Of a stretch of DNA of 38,282 nucleotides, positions 34,748 to 38,282 are shown piece by piece (the stretch's first letter is position 1; every line of letters begins with the position of its first letter). A program made the translations under genes and the position numbers. Below the pieces are notes generated by a model. The model did not search any database. It was not told where the DNA came from and saw only the letters and a program-made list of their open reading frames with translations. This stretch comes from a virus: positions 1 to 38,282 of the IMG/VR virus record IMGVR_UViG_3300032308_000692; one strand, 5' to 3'.

Positions 34748-35362
34748 ATGTATTATATTTATGCCTACCTCAGGCAAGATGGGACACCTTACTATATTGG
34801 TAAAGGTAAGAGTAAAAGAGCATATAAAGGTCCACATATCGTCTCTATTCCCAAACAAAAAAATCATATTATTATTATGGAATCTAATCTAACAGAAATA
34901 GGGGCCTTAGCATTAGAAAGGTTTTATATCCGTTGGTATGGTCGTAAAGATATCGGAACAGGTTGCCTAAGAAATCTTACTGATGGAGGTGATGGTGCTT
35001 CGGGTCATATACACACAAAACAAACAATAAAACTTATGTCTAAAAACCGTAAAGGAAAAGGACAAAGAAAAGGTACAACCACTGTTAGAGATAAAGAAGG
35101 AAATTGTTTTATAGTTAGTGTAAATGATGATAGGTATATAAATGGTGAACTGGTTGCTGTAAATAGAGGATGTAAAAGAAAACCGCACTCCAACAAAACA
35201 AAAGAATTGTTAAGGAATGCGGCTAATAATAGAGAAGTTTTTTACTGTGAAGTATGTGATAGGGAAATAAAAGGTAAGATGAACTGGGACAGACATTTAT
35301 CTTCTCAAAAACATCTGTCCCAATATATGAAGATTAATCGTCCGCTAAACGGCGGAACATAG
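34748..35362 (+). CDS. GIY-YIG homing endonuclease with C-terminal C2H2 zinc finger
   Basis: This is a 204-residue free-standing homing endonuclease. The catalytic domain begins [20 protein letters not shown] (the GIY-YIG pair as YIY...YIG), with R/K-rich [10 protein letters not shown] and [16 protein letters not shown] carrying the usual Arg and Glu. [11 protein letters not shown] and a short [11 protein letters not shown] motif (NUMOD3-like) follow. The C-terminus has C167, C170, H183 and H189 (CEVCD-x-HLSSQKH), a zinc finger likely used in DNA binding. It sits between the hydrolase and gp32, points at gp32, and its last 29 nt overlap the gp32 3' end in the opposite direction. GGAG precedes the ATG. 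Probably a mobile element of the endonuclease type. Confidence 0.9.
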
Positions 35363-36281
35363 CGAGGTCCTCATCTTCTTCCTCTTCAACAACAGGCGCA
35401 GATGCCTTCTGCTTGGTAGTAACTGGCTTAGGTGTCTCTACCCAAGGTGCTTCCTCTTCAACTGGAGCCGATGCTCGTGGTGCTGGTGCTGAACCAGTGT
35501 AACCCATAACATCATCCAGACGACGCTTTAGTTCCTCATAGGACTTAAAGTTTTTAAGGTCAACAATCTCTTTAAGAGAATGTTCACGCTTCCAGATTGA
35601 CTCCAACTCACCATCATCCTGACTCAATGGGCCTGCCGTCAAGAATACCGACTCATCATAGTTAGGGAATGATACGTTACGACCACCCATATTAACGTTC
35701 TGACGGGTAACCTTCAACTTGAAATTGGCACCCTTCCAAAGATCAAAAGGATTAACCTTTGTTTCCGACTCAAGGTCAGGATTCATCATCTTTGTGATCT
35801 TATCAAAGATTTTCTTGCCATACTTGAACAAGAATACCTTACCCTCATTTTCAGGGTTCTTAGGATCACTCACCACATAGATGTTAGAAACATAGTGGAG
35901 ACGACGCTTCTGGTCACGGGCCTGCTTACGCTCAGGACCATTATCGTCTGTTGTAGAGTTCCACAACTGTGAATTAAGTTCTGAAACTGGATCTTTCTGA
36001 TCAAAGGTTGTTAGTGACTTCTCAATATACCACTTACCTGTAACCTTGTTCTGGAATCCATGGTCAAAGTAACGAACCCAAGGAAGGGCATCATCACCAT
36101 CAACCGCAGGACCAGGAAGGAAACGAATAACAGCAAGAGCATTACCTGTCTTGTCTGGCGTTGGCTTCCAATAGTTATCGGTGCTTTCGTCCTTTTCGTA
36201 GGTAGGGTTTGAGAGTTTTTCTACTTGCTTGAGTAGACCATCAAAGTTTGAGGAGTTTTTTTTAAGATTTGAAAAGTTCAT
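35334..36281 (-). CDS. 32: Single-stranded DNA-binding protein gp32
   Basis: This 315-residue protein matches T4 gp32 (301 aa). The basic N-terminus ([20 protein letters not shown]) is for cooperative self-binding. The core includes [69 protein letters not shown] and [11 protein letters not shown]. The C-terminus is acidic and disordered ([17 protein letters not shown]), for contacts with other replication proteins. It contains no cysteine at all, so the zinc site of T4 gp32 (Cys/His ligands) is absent; the corresponding loop is [11 protein letters not shown] sigma70 consensus promoter lies ~70 nt upstream. Confidence 0.95.
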
Positions 36282-36354: not shown

Positions 36355-36383
36355 ATTATAACAGGGGCCGAGGCCCCTGTCAA
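36355..36383 (-). promoter_or_regulatory. Consensus sigma70 promoter upstream of gp32
   Basis: On the minus strand TTGACA (36383-36378), exactly 17 nt, then TATAAT (36360-36355): a perfect match to the bacterial sigma70 consensus. Transcription would begin near 36348, giving a leader of about 65-70 nt before the gp32 ATG. The segment upstream of the -35 (AATAACACTTGACA) is shared with the tmRNA promoter. Confidence 0.88.
36361..36380. promoter_or_regulatory. Palindromic operator-like site within the gp32 promoter spacer
   Basis: ACAGGGGCC-TC-GGCCCCTGT on the minus strand is a 9+9-bp inverted repeat with a 2-bp centre. It fills the 17-bp spacer and overlaps the end of the -35. It is very GC-rich in an AT-rich genome. 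It could be an operator for a dimeric regulator. It could also form a hairpin in plus-strand RNA. Confidence 0.6.
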
Positions 36384-36390
36384 GTGTTAT

Positions 36391-36564
36391 TTATATTAAT
36401 AGGAGGAAAAGTTCAAGATAAAATTCTACTTCTTCCGTAACTGTTAGAATTTCTTGGGTTGCATTGTGTAATAAAACTAGTTTACCATTTTGATGTTGAA
36501 TATGATAGTGGCCTTCGGCAAAGTCTCTTAGGATATCTGATGCATTACCTTCTAGAAGTCTCAT
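36391..36564 (-). CDS. Small 57-residue protein between gp59 and gp32
   Basis: The gene begins MRLLEGNASDILRDFAEGHY and ends EEVEFYLELFLLLI. AAGGAG lies 6 nt upstream of the ATG at 36564 and the start overlaps the last 20 nt of gp59. The middle (HIQHQNGKLVLLHNATQEIL) suggests a beta hairpin, and the C-terminus is hydrophobic. No family is recognised. Good ribosome-binding site, overlap and in-frame length make it a likely real gene. It ends just before the gp32 promoter. Confidence 0.65.
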   Translation of the reverse strand: MRLLEGNASDILRDFAEGHYHIQHQNGKLVLLHNATQEILTVTEEVEFYLELFLLLI

Positions 36565-37150
36565 CTATTTTCTCCTTGAGTATATGTTTTATCTTATTCT
36601 TATCGTATTTTAGAAATGGTTTATATTTACGAAGTTTCAAGGATATTTTGGACCAAATGATATCATCACACAGGTATTTATTGAACTTATCGGAGTAGAG
36701 AATGAAATCATCTAATATTACCATAGTTTCAGGTGATATAATACGGCGAAGATAGAGATTAACAATATTAGGATATTCACCATCACTTATAACAAAAGAA
36801 CCTGTAGGATTATCTCCAAATACTTTTTCTAATTCACTGGTAAAATTATATGATAATGCCTGGCGCCGCCGCTGATACTCTATATAGTTTTTTTGGCATC
36901 CATCATCTATCATTTCTGTTACATAATGTTTATCTTCAAGCAGATTGGCAACATAAAAGTCCCTAAGTTCTTCTATGGTATATTCTCTAGCCAATTTCTC
37001 AAAGAAATACTTATCATGTCTTTTATTGTATGACTCCTTATTTGCACGGAGTTTACCATGCATTTGGAAAAAGTCATACTTGGTATTAGTGAAATGTGTT
37101 CTTAATGCCAAGAATAACAGATAAGCACCATAACCGGTGAAGTGTTTCAT
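36545..37150 (-). CDS. 59: Replicative helicase loader gp59
   Basis: This 201-residue protein matches T4 gp59 (217 aa), which loads the gp41 helicase onto gp32-coated forks. The N-terminal region GYGAYLLFLALRTHFTNTKY with DFFQMHGKLRANKES is typical, as is the helical FFEKLAREYTIEELRDFYVA. The C-terminal half (PNIVNLYLRRIISPETMVIL, then DKFNKYLCDDIIWSKISLKL) also fits. Start codon and gp33 stop overlap in ATGA. The order 33-59-32 is as in T4. Confidence 0.9.
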   Translation of the reverse strand: MKHFTGYGAYLLFLALRTHFTNTKYDFFQMHGKLRANKESYNKRHDKYFFEKLAREYTIEELRDFYVANLLEDKHYVTEMIDDGCQKNYIEYQRRRQALSYNFTSELEKVFGDNPTGSFVISDGEYPNIVNLYLRRIISPETMVILDDFILYSDKFNKYLCDDIIWSKISLKLRKYKPFLKYDKNKIKHILKEKIDETSRR

Positions 37151-37371
37151 AGGGGTAATTTGGCGGTGTTTGTCTTTGTGAGATAGTGAAGGTCTTCGGC
37201 TTCCAATTTTATTTTTGATTTAAGGACACCTGATACAAGCTTGGCAGCAATTTCTATTTCAATACCTGTTTCTTCACAATATTCAGTTATAGCATCAATG
37301 TAAGGTATATCTTTCGTGTATACCAGTTCCTCAATTGCCATAGAGAAACGGTTAATATCTTCGGCGTTCAT
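37147..37371 (-). CDS. 33: Late transcription co-activator gp33
   Basis: This 74-residue protein corresponds to T4 gp33 (112 aa), which bridges RNA polymerase and the sliding clamp for late transcription. The segment DIPYIDAITEYCEETGIEIE with IAAKLVSGVLKSKIKLEAED is characteristic of short gp33 homologues, and the protein sits before gp59 as in T4. It is the first protein gene downstream of the tmRNA; AGGA lies 7 nt before the ATG and may be partly paired with the tmRNA 3' region. Confidence 0.82.
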   Translation of the reverse strand: MNAEDINRFSMAIEELVYTKDIPYIDAITEYCEETGIEIEIAAKLVSGVLKSKIKLEAEDLHYLTKTNTAKLPL

Positions 37372-37399
37372 TTTATTTTCCTATGTTTCATAATATAAA

Positions 37400-37548
37400 G
37401 GTGCCGGATTCTGTTTCCAGGCTCCGGCGGGCCCATAGGATTATGCCGCTAGGCGGATATCCTGATATGCAAAATTATCGTTTGCATTTACGATTTGCTT
37501 TCGGTCTCCTTACGCCTTTACCACGTAGATCAATCCTATTTCGGGCCC
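37400..37548 (-). ncRNA. tmRNA coding piece with proteolysis tag frame 37485-37441
   Basis: It begins with the 5' acceptor strand GGGCCCG (37548-37542) and a tRNA-like region AAATAGGATTGATCTACGTG. The resume codon GCA is at 37485-37483; the tag codons run to 37444 and TAA occupies 37443-37441. Structures seen: CCGC-CTA-GCGG at the end of the tag (closed by GGAT/ATCC), and after the stop a hairpin GCCGGA/TCCGGC (37428-37403) with an inner GAAA tetraloop. The 3' end is estimated at about 37400. Confidence 0.82.
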
Positions 37549-37573
37549 AATTAAACATACCTTAATGTGCTTA

Positions 37574-37641
37574 TGGTGGACCCGCTCGGTACCGCCCCGA
37601 GGTCTCTTCCGCTTATTTTACGTCTCTCAACGACCTAAGCA
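37574..37641 (-). ncRNA. tmRNA acceptor piece (T-arm and encoded CCA)
   Basis: The 5' end is placed near the expected start of the promoter transcript. CTGCTTA (37642-37636 region) can pair with a downstream TAAGCGG. The T-stem CTCGG (37601-37597) pairs with CCGAG (37589-37585) around a 7-nt loop GGCGGTA. Then come the 3' acceptor strand CGGGTCC (37584-37578), the discriminator A (37577) and CCA (37576-37574). The loop keeps only part of the usual TTCRANN. Confidence 0.85.
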
Positions 37642-37645
37642 GGTA

Positions 37646-37676
37646 TATTTATAACATATATTGAAATTTTTGTCAA
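37646..37676 (-). promoter_or_regulatory. sigma70 promoter overlapping a late box, upstream of tmRNA
   Basis: TTGACA (37676-37671), 17 nt, then TATAAA (37653-37648) on the minus strand. The -10 extends to TATAAATA (37653-37646), a perfect T4-type late box. Early and late polymerase forms could therefore both start the tmRNA near 37641-37640. Upstream bases AATAACAC are the same as in the gp32 promoter. Confidence 0.8.
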
Positions 37677-37679
37677 GTG

Positions 37680-37823
37680 TTATTCTACTTGGTTCTCAAA
37701 CTCTTCCATCTGTGGTGCACCAACACCACGATGGTCACGGGAACCATTAGTTACAGGGGCGACTAGTGTTGTCCCGTATAAGGCAGTCTGCGATGGTGAT
37801 AGTGTTACAACTAGCCAACCCAA
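37680..37823 (-). CDS. Possible overlapping ORF in +1 frame to the lipoprotein gene
   Basis: An open frame (TTG start possible at 37823, stop TAA at 37682-37680) encodes LGWLVVTLSPSQTALYG, then APVTNGSRDHRGVGAPQM and EEFENQVE. It overlaps the lipoprotein ORF out of frame, and a +1 shift would join the lipoprotein's hydrophobic start to this end. There is no ATG. Its charged, ordinary-looking C-terminus is why I list it. Either frame could be the real one. Confidence 0.35.
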   Translation of the reverse strand: MGWLVVTLSPSQTALYGTTLVAPVTNGSRDHRGVGAPQMEEFENQVE

Positions 37824-37860
37824 GACTAAGAAACACCATTATTGGTAGGAAGTATTTCAT
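37747..37860 (-). CDS. Small putative lipoprotein (37 residues)
   Basis: The sequence begins MKYFLPIMVFLSLGLASC, a short signal peptide with a lipobox (L-A-S-C, C18). A 19-residue tail with two more cysteines follows. It overlaps the preceding gene by ATGA. Small lipoproteins in phages are often outer-membrane spanins, but nothing here proves that role. See the overlapping ORF at 37680-37823. Confidence 0.5.
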   Translation of the reverse strand: MKYFLPIMVFLSLGLASCNTITIADCLIRDNTSRPCN

Positions 37861-38036
37861 TCTTTATCCTTTCCAGATATAGATTTCATTAATGACATAG
37901 GATAATCCACTATTCTTGATAATGCTTCAACGGCATTTTCGTTGCTAACACCACCAGCAATCTTATCTTTTGACCACATAACATACTTAATCAGCATTTG
38001 TATGTCTTTAGCATGTTGGTCCCTTAACTCATTCAT
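37857..38036 (-). CDS. Small hypothetical protein (59 residues)
   Basis: It reads MNELRDQHAKDIQMLIKYVM, then KDKIAGGVSNENAVEALSRI, ending SISGKDKE; it is predicted helical and no family is known. The start overlaps the nuclease stop (ATGA) and the stop overlaps the start of the lipoprotein ORF (ATGA). GAGAGGA lies upstream of the ATG. The coupled junctions support that it is translated. Confidence 0.65.
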   Translation of the reverse strand: MNELRDQHAKDIQMLIKYVMWSKDKIAGGVSNENAVEALSRIVDYPMSLMKSISGKDKE

Positions 38037-38282
38037 AAATTAAATTCCTCTCTAAATTGAACTATCTTATCGTATAGTCCTTTCACATATTCACCACGTT
38101 TCTTAACAAAGACCTGTGGTTTTGGTTCATGGTCGACTGATATTAACACCACAATCTGTCTGGCCTGAATACCAGTCATGTCCTCATACATCAAAGAGTA
38201 TGCGGTACATTGTTCAAAGTAGGATAAAATCCATTCTTCTTTCTTTAACTTTAGAGATGTTTTAAAATCAATAATGGAAGGA
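38033..38282 (-). CDS. PD-(D/E)XK nuclease, C-terminal part (5' end outside window)
   Basis: The visible ~82 residues begin SIIDFKTSLKLKKEEWILSY, then FEQCTAYSLMYEDMTGIQAR and QIVVLISVDHEPKPQVFVKK. IIDFKTS supplies the D-x-K of the PD-(D/E)XK active site, and the following helix (W---YF-QCTAY) with V-LI-VDHE is typical of the RecB/Cas4-like exonucleases found in T4-like phages. The N-terminus is beyond the right edge. Confidence 0.7.
   Translation of the reverse strand, partial: PSIIDFKTSLKLKKEEWILSYFEQCTAYSLMYEDMTGIQARQIVVLISVDHEPKPQVFVKKRGEYVKGLYDKIVQFREEFNL

Follow-up and report, generated by a model that had tools for sequence, protein, structure and literature searches.

An alpha-type, two-piece tmRNA gene upstream of gp33 in a T4-like phage, with nested protein genes in some of its relatives

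Anatomy of the locus

The virus record is a 38-kb linear fragment (38,282 nt; "the window" below means this whole analyzed stretch). T4-type baseplate genes are among its other proteins, and its gp6 baseplate wedge protein is ~39% identical to that of the nearest listed isolates, HTVC008M, Mosig, and Melnitz. All window features described here lie on the minus strand. Three genes were assigned by PHROG matches: a gp32-like single-strand DNA binding protein (35334–36281; PHROG 224, E 1.7e-100), a gp59-like DNA helicase loader (36545–37150; PHROG 269, E 1.2e-53), and a gp33-like late transcription coactivator (37147–37371; PHROG 254, E 3e-20). The gap of ~308 nt upstream of gp33 (37372–37679) holds the tmRNA gene, so that gp33 follows directly downstream. 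Along the minus strand the order is TTGACA, TATAAATA, GGTCGTTGAGAG, T arm, 3' acceptor half with ACCA, intervening segment, 5' acceptor half, resume region, tag, 3' hairpin, and gp33.

The tRNA-like (acceptor) piece (37574–37635, from the RF04321 and RF01849 alignments and an architecture scan; 5' end approximate) opens with the conserved start GGTCGTTGAGAG from ~37635. It comprises the T arm CUCGG-GGCGGUA-CCGAG (37601–37585, 5/5 pairs), the 3' acceptor half CGGGUCC (37578–37584), and an encoded ACCA (37574–37577). The intervening segment found by the scan is 25 nt long (37549–37573) and hairpin-like as judged by eye, also in the close relatives L130 and L164. The coding (mRNA-like) piece (37400–37548, from RF01849 and acceptor pairing) begins with the 5' acceptor half GGGCCCG (37542–37548), which in the architecture scan forms 7/7 pairs with CGGGUCC, including G3·U70, the alanine identity pair (GGGCCCG/CGGGUCC-A). 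Direct translation of the tag frame (37485–37441) gives ANDNFAYQDIRLAA and a stop codon, with a resume alanine codon and a hydrophobic, degron-like end. Tags of relatives have a like form, with the -LAA type end kept and a variable middle. A hairpin, GCCGGA-GCCUGGAAACAGAA-UCCGGC (37403–37428), with a conserved AACAGAA loop and complementary stems that vary among relatives, lies 3' of the tag.

Identification as an alpha-type permuted tmRNA

Two Rfam models of permuted tmRNA recognized the locus on the minus strand: alpha_tmRNA (RF01849) at 37400–37680 with 109.4 bits (cut-off 50, E 3.6e-29) and tmRNA_permuted (RF04321) at 37441–37635 with 93 bits (cut-off 47, E 6.6e-17). These scores and E-values place the match far beyond chance. 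The beta tmRNA model reached only 42.5 bits on the window, under its cut-off of 84, and the cyanobacterial and one-piece (RF00023) models had no match there, showing that the gene is of the alpha type. Thus, the window carries a real, intact-looking alpha-type permuted tmRNA gene in a T4-like phage.

An earlier note, made from the DNA letters alone, had described a two-piece layout with the same coordinates and tag, an alpha-type permuted tmRNA, a T4-like phage with this gene upstream of gp33, an unusually long gap of ~310 nt at that place, and a promoter of the gene's own. Sequence reading and the architecture scan, the Rfam scores, the gp33, gp59, and gp32 matches, the measured gap, and the promoter-like element described below bear out these points in turn. 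The two model checks proposed there gave different outcomes: alpha_tmRNA was positive, but ARAGORN reported no tmRNA in the window. Of 48 phage tmRNA loci of this kind, 12 went unreported by ARAGORN, including L127 and L132, the closest relatives of the window, and all five gp32 relatives with an HNH-type gene inside the tmRNA (see below). Surveys based on this common search program, which misses a quarter of such genes, therefore likely undercount them.

A promoter with two possible readings

Upstream of the tmRNA, TTGACA (37671–37676), read in the sequence as a −35 box, is followed after a 17-nt spacer by TATAAATA (37646–37653), giving TTGACA-N17-TATAAATA at 37676–37646. TATAAATA is the T4-type late promoter box; as a sequence pattern, the pair also fits a sigma-70 promoter with TATAAATA as the putative −10 element. 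Among 131 distinct phage tmRNAs, TATAAATA was present upstream of the gene in 71 and the fuller pattern TTGAC-N16–18-TATAAATA in 49. The box was not enriched across the whole window (7 found versus 6.2 expected), and its information value thus lies solely in its recurrent placement ahead of the tmRNA in many relatives. Because the promoter combines sigma-70-like −35 and −10 elements with a late box, the tmRNA is probably made both early and late. In PMC9004378, TATAAAT was taken as the late promoter box.

Another promoter-like element lies upstream of gp32 (36355–36395). It is a perfect 12/12 sigma-70-like promoter, TTGACA-N17-TATAAT with an extended TG, and a TATAAATA box (36388–36395) is located a few bases further upstream.

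Compensatory changes in the tmRNA stems

The window RNA folded with a z-score of −3.0, and only 1 of 200 shuffled sequences was as stable. In 35 distinct phage copies, the acceptor pairs 4-69, 5-68, and 6-67 and the T-stem pairs 49-65, 50-64, and 51-63 each occurred as two to four pair types and were always paired, while G1-C72, G2-C71, G3·U70, and G7-C66 were constant. Since the architecture scan itself demanded at least 6/7 acceptor pairs and G3·U70, the loci found with the Rfam model (n = 30) serve as the fair test set; all 30 had 7/7 acceptor pairs and G3·U70. Around the constant AACAGAA, the 160 phage loci bearing this motif had 79 different complementary stems, and in 98% of them the stem was ≥6 bp long, versus 19% with shuffled flanks. 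Such compensatory changes are strong evidence that the tmRNA is used.

When the window copy is folded to minimum energy, GGGCCC pairs with a second GGGCCC located 3' of the tag and not with the CCA piece. We gave this alternative fold no weight because it is absent from the relatives L131 and L132.

Distribution in related phages

A gp32 search in IMG/VR returned 80 loci, the best of which (L127) was 100% identical over gp32; L132 lies on a 165-kb contig. The tmRNA was present in 43 of these 80 loci, and many of the others end before that point. Some loci (e.g., L174, L188, and L203) contain gp33 and enough upstream DNA yet seemingly have no tmRNA, indicating that this phage group can do without the gene. 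When 50 records were searched whole, 27 had a permuted tmRNA above the cut-off, including Melnitz, Mosig, HTVC008M, DSS3_MAL1, and MD18. At least 120 stretches matched a scan pattern for the resume region and tag; among those listed, 96 have the complete two-piece architecture. Among the same listed matches, gp32, gp59, or gp33 was found on 60 contigs, and the tmRNA was upstream on the same strand in 57. Melnitz, Mosig, HTVC008M, and dozens of contigs in IMG/VR share the gene order of the window; the distance between tmRNA and gp33 varied among relatives from <100 nt to several kb. In L132, the tRNA-like piece and the intervening segment are as in the window, and the tag region is close to that of L131. 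This mixture of pieces suggests a piecewise exchange of tmRNA parts within phages.

Comparison with known tmRNAs

The earlier note had regarded it as striking that a T4-like phage should carry an alpha-type gene. This view did not hold, since Buchholz et al. (PMC9004378) describe the ssrA of Melnitz-type T4-like phages with exactly such synteny, and the gene is common in T4-like contigs. In that work, 53 of 133 distinct structures of phage tmRNAs were of the two-piece kind, and 17 of 47 Melnitz-related contigs had a permuted tmRNA. The window gene is thus not new in kind, since Melnitz and other marine phages carry this gene at this position, and adds to the already known marine-phage ssrA genes upstream of gp33.

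Melnitz (MZ577097) and the pelagiphages Mosig and HTVC008M resemble the window in being T4-like and in carrying a tmRNA that both Rfam models place in the alpha-type permuted group, on the same strand upstream of gp33 (in Melnitz also upstream of gp59). Their tags are unlike that of the window (ANDNYVPVDYALAA in Melnitz, ANFNEYALAA in HTVC008M, and another in Mosig). In Melnitz, the intervening segment is 142 nt instead of 25 nt long, and a glutamine riboswitch (RF01739, 52.8 bits), which the window lacks, follows just after the tmRNA. The roseophages DSS3_MAL1 and MD18 (the latter with the host Phaeobacter) also carry an alpha-type permuted tmRNA; however, their ssrA sits in a tRNA cluster and not upstream of gp33, and its tag is ANTNAAPMEMAIAA. 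A DNA search of the window locus against phage records returned short chance-level matches and, in DSS3_MAL1 and MD18, one of 39 nt. In the tRNA cluster of DSS3_MAL1, a GOLLD RNA (RF02032, 160.5 bits; L208:925–1388) stands directly before the tmRNA, whereas the window tmRNA is located upstream of gp33. The tmRNAs of mycobacteriophages and other phages that consist of one piece are phage-borne as well but not permuted, and their model (RF00023) had no match in the window.

The alphaproteobacterial two-piece tmRNA (RF01849, e.g., Caulobacter ssrA) shares with the window the permutation, the T loop of the GGCGGUA kind, G3·U70, a tag start ANDN, and a -LAA type end. It differs from the phage copies by near-invariant T arms, by tags mostly of 12 amino acids (aa; 9 in SAR11) instead of 14, and by its almost entirely separate place in the tree.

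Phage and host copies

We compared phage and host copies. From one alphaproteobacterial class, 289 genomes were sampled, and 266 of them matched the alpha_tmRNA model. Tags were mostly of 12 aa (9 aa in SAR11) in 88 distinct host copies and mostly of 14 aa in 130 distinct phage copies. The search pattern made the phage set lean to ANDN tags, and the first host set leans to high model scores. The ends ALAA and RLAA are common to phage and host, RLAA being present in 10 of the 88 host tags. The exact tag start ANDNFAYQ(D/E), searched as an exact codon pattern, was absent from 84,980 species genomes, so that the tag did not point to a host. T arms were of 7 kinds in the 88 host copies (mainly the best-scoring hosts) versus 70 kinds in the 130 phage copies.

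In a first tree with the hosts of best model scores, the split between phage and host was complete. Once the tree also included SAR11 and hosts with low scores (132 copies from phages, 131 from hosts), it required three label changes versus 88 in shuffles; we therefore describe the separation as almost complete and claim no single origin. With sequences this short, we read the separation only as a sign that most phage genes were not recently acquired from hosts. Intervening segments had a median of 23.5 to 34 nt in hosts, depending on the sample, with 2 of 142 above 300 nt, and a median of 78 nt in phages, with 17 of 130 of at least 150 nt. These two host permuted tmRNAs from alphaproteobacterial genomes, L509 and L511, have segments of 575 and 333 nt; thus, segment length alone is not phage-specific. 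Nor does an alpha-type tmRNA prove an alphaproteobacterial host, as Melnitz infects a Methylophilales strain.

Function of the phage tmRNA

SmpB was found in none of 17 phage records, including five isolate genomes; host SmpB, alanyl-tRNA synthetase, RNase P, and proteases must therefore serve the phage tmRNA. Judged from its sequence, the locus very probably encodes a functional two-piece tmRNA that is matured and charged by the host, works with host SmpB, and rescues stalled ribosomes during infection. From the gene, its structure, its conservation, and its synteny, we infer the following course for the timing of transcription, processing, charging, tagging, and benefit. A single precursor would be transcribed, probably early and late, from the promoter with sigma-70-like −35 and −10 elements and the late box TATAAATA. 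Host RNase P and tRNA 3'-processing enzymes would excise the 25-nt intervening hairpin, and the acceptor stem would keep the two pieces paired. The CCA end would be charged by the host alanyl-tRNA synthetase via G3·U70, and host SmpB would bring the tmRNA to ribosomes that have stalled on broken mRNA. Such a ribosome would then move to the tag frame, add the charged alanine and ANDNFAYQDIRLAA, and terminate, and the tagged product would go to ClpXP-type proteases of the host. For the phage, the presumed benefit is that ribosomes stay in use while host RNA is destroyed.

The earlier note had suggested that the RNA may keep ribosomes turning over or redirect tagging, and both ideas are still inferences. 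According to the second, already proposed for Melnitz (PMC9004378), the phage tmRNA would mainly send host or early proteins to proteolysis by its own tag, for amino-acid recycling or removal of host factors. The tags do differ from those of the sampled hosts (modal length 14 versus 12 aa, and a start found in none of the species genomes). However, they end in ALAA and RLAA, the same degron-like ends as in hosts, and since a tmRNA acts on stalled ribosomes, the sequence offers no choice of target; we therefore consider redirection as the main role unlikely. A tmRNA without a reading frame, from mycobacteriophage DS6A, was reported to inhibit the endogenous tmRNA of Escherichia coli (PMC11915505), and the window RNA might likewise be a decoy that holds SmpB or ribosomes and blocks host trans-translation. 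Yet the window and related copies retain the tag frame, the resume region, the stop codon, and the alanine identity pair, features for which a decoy has no use; we consider this role very improbable.

The least probable explanation is that the locus is a mere structured leader of gp33 or a functionless, drifting relic of a captured host ssrA. In favor, it immediately precedes gp33 on its strand, and the two may be cotranscribed. Against it stand the compensatory changes in several stems, the constant G3·U70, the open tag frame, the variable distance to gp33 among relatives, and the phage copies, which lie apart from host copies, not nested among them, and are thus mostly no fresh captures. Returning to ribosome rescue, its importance in infection is argued for by the retention of the tmRNA upstream of gp33 over large protein divergence. 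The window thus adds a well-supported further case to the many T4-like phages that have their own ribosome-rescue RNA. The comparison also yields testable points: the hybrid sigma-70/late promoter, tags longer than those of sampled hosts, and the reliance on host SmpB.

Protein genes in the intervening segments of relatives

The 25-nt intervening segment of the window contains no nested protein gene, but those of several relatives do. An HNH-type, homing-endonuclease-like gene of 144–156 codons fills the segment in L142 (2897–3388) and L143 (2484–2975; both 492 nt), in L148 (2891–3372), L149, and L159 (482 nt), and in L016 (495 nt), with the tmRNA parts intact. The 144- to 156-aa proteins matched the homing endonuclease PHROG 655 (E 7e-13 to 7e-15), and Pfam HNH was just under its cut-off. 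Rfam scored the interrupted genes of L143 and L149 above the cut-off, and acceptor stems stayed at 7/7 pairs. Between L142 and L148, the nested gene showed a dS of ~2.0 and a dN of 0.27.

Small, partly conserved, and often membrane-protein-like frames were seen in the segments of L087, L111, L120, L026, L055, L104, L007, L010, L113, L051, L048, L063, and L066. The 44-aa frame of L087, L111, and L120 had a pS of 0.28–0.47 and a pN of 0.06–0.08, the 62-aa frame of L055 and L104 had a dS of 1.6 and a dN of 0.28, and that of L007 and L010 was also conserved. Frames of such length arose in 0 of 2000 shuffles for L142, L148, L016, L113, and L055 and in 20 of 2000 for L087. The nested open frames are usually preceded by a ribosome-binding site, and 11 distinct ones stop one base before GGG, in UGA-U-GGG. 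Since in many of them the UGA overlaps the junction UGAUGGG, the same precursor could be either translated or matured.

We somewhat favor the view that the window holds the "empty" form of an old, phage-specific permuted-tmRNA lineage, in which the excised segment would be an intron-like home for protein genes, among them small conserved ones under purifying selection, and the precursor would be translated or matured. Whereas the window tmRNA is of a known kind, protein genes nested in a tmRNA intervening segment are the newer observation; we found no description of them in the literature (open-licence texts). If shown to be expressed, they would represent a new kind of gene within an RNA gene.

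Small frames upstream of the tmRNA

Just upstream of the tmRNA promoter, at 37680–37860, two small frames overlap in different reading frames: a 37-aa lipoprotein-like frame (MKYFLPIMVFLSLGLASC...) and a 47-aa frame ending in ...MEEFENQVE, both conserved in relatives. This arrangement may reflect two overlapping genes or a product of frameshifting. Further upstream, a 53-aa frame (38033–38194) occurs in conserved form ahead of the tmRNA in dozens of contigs from T4-like phages and is thus a very stable gene.
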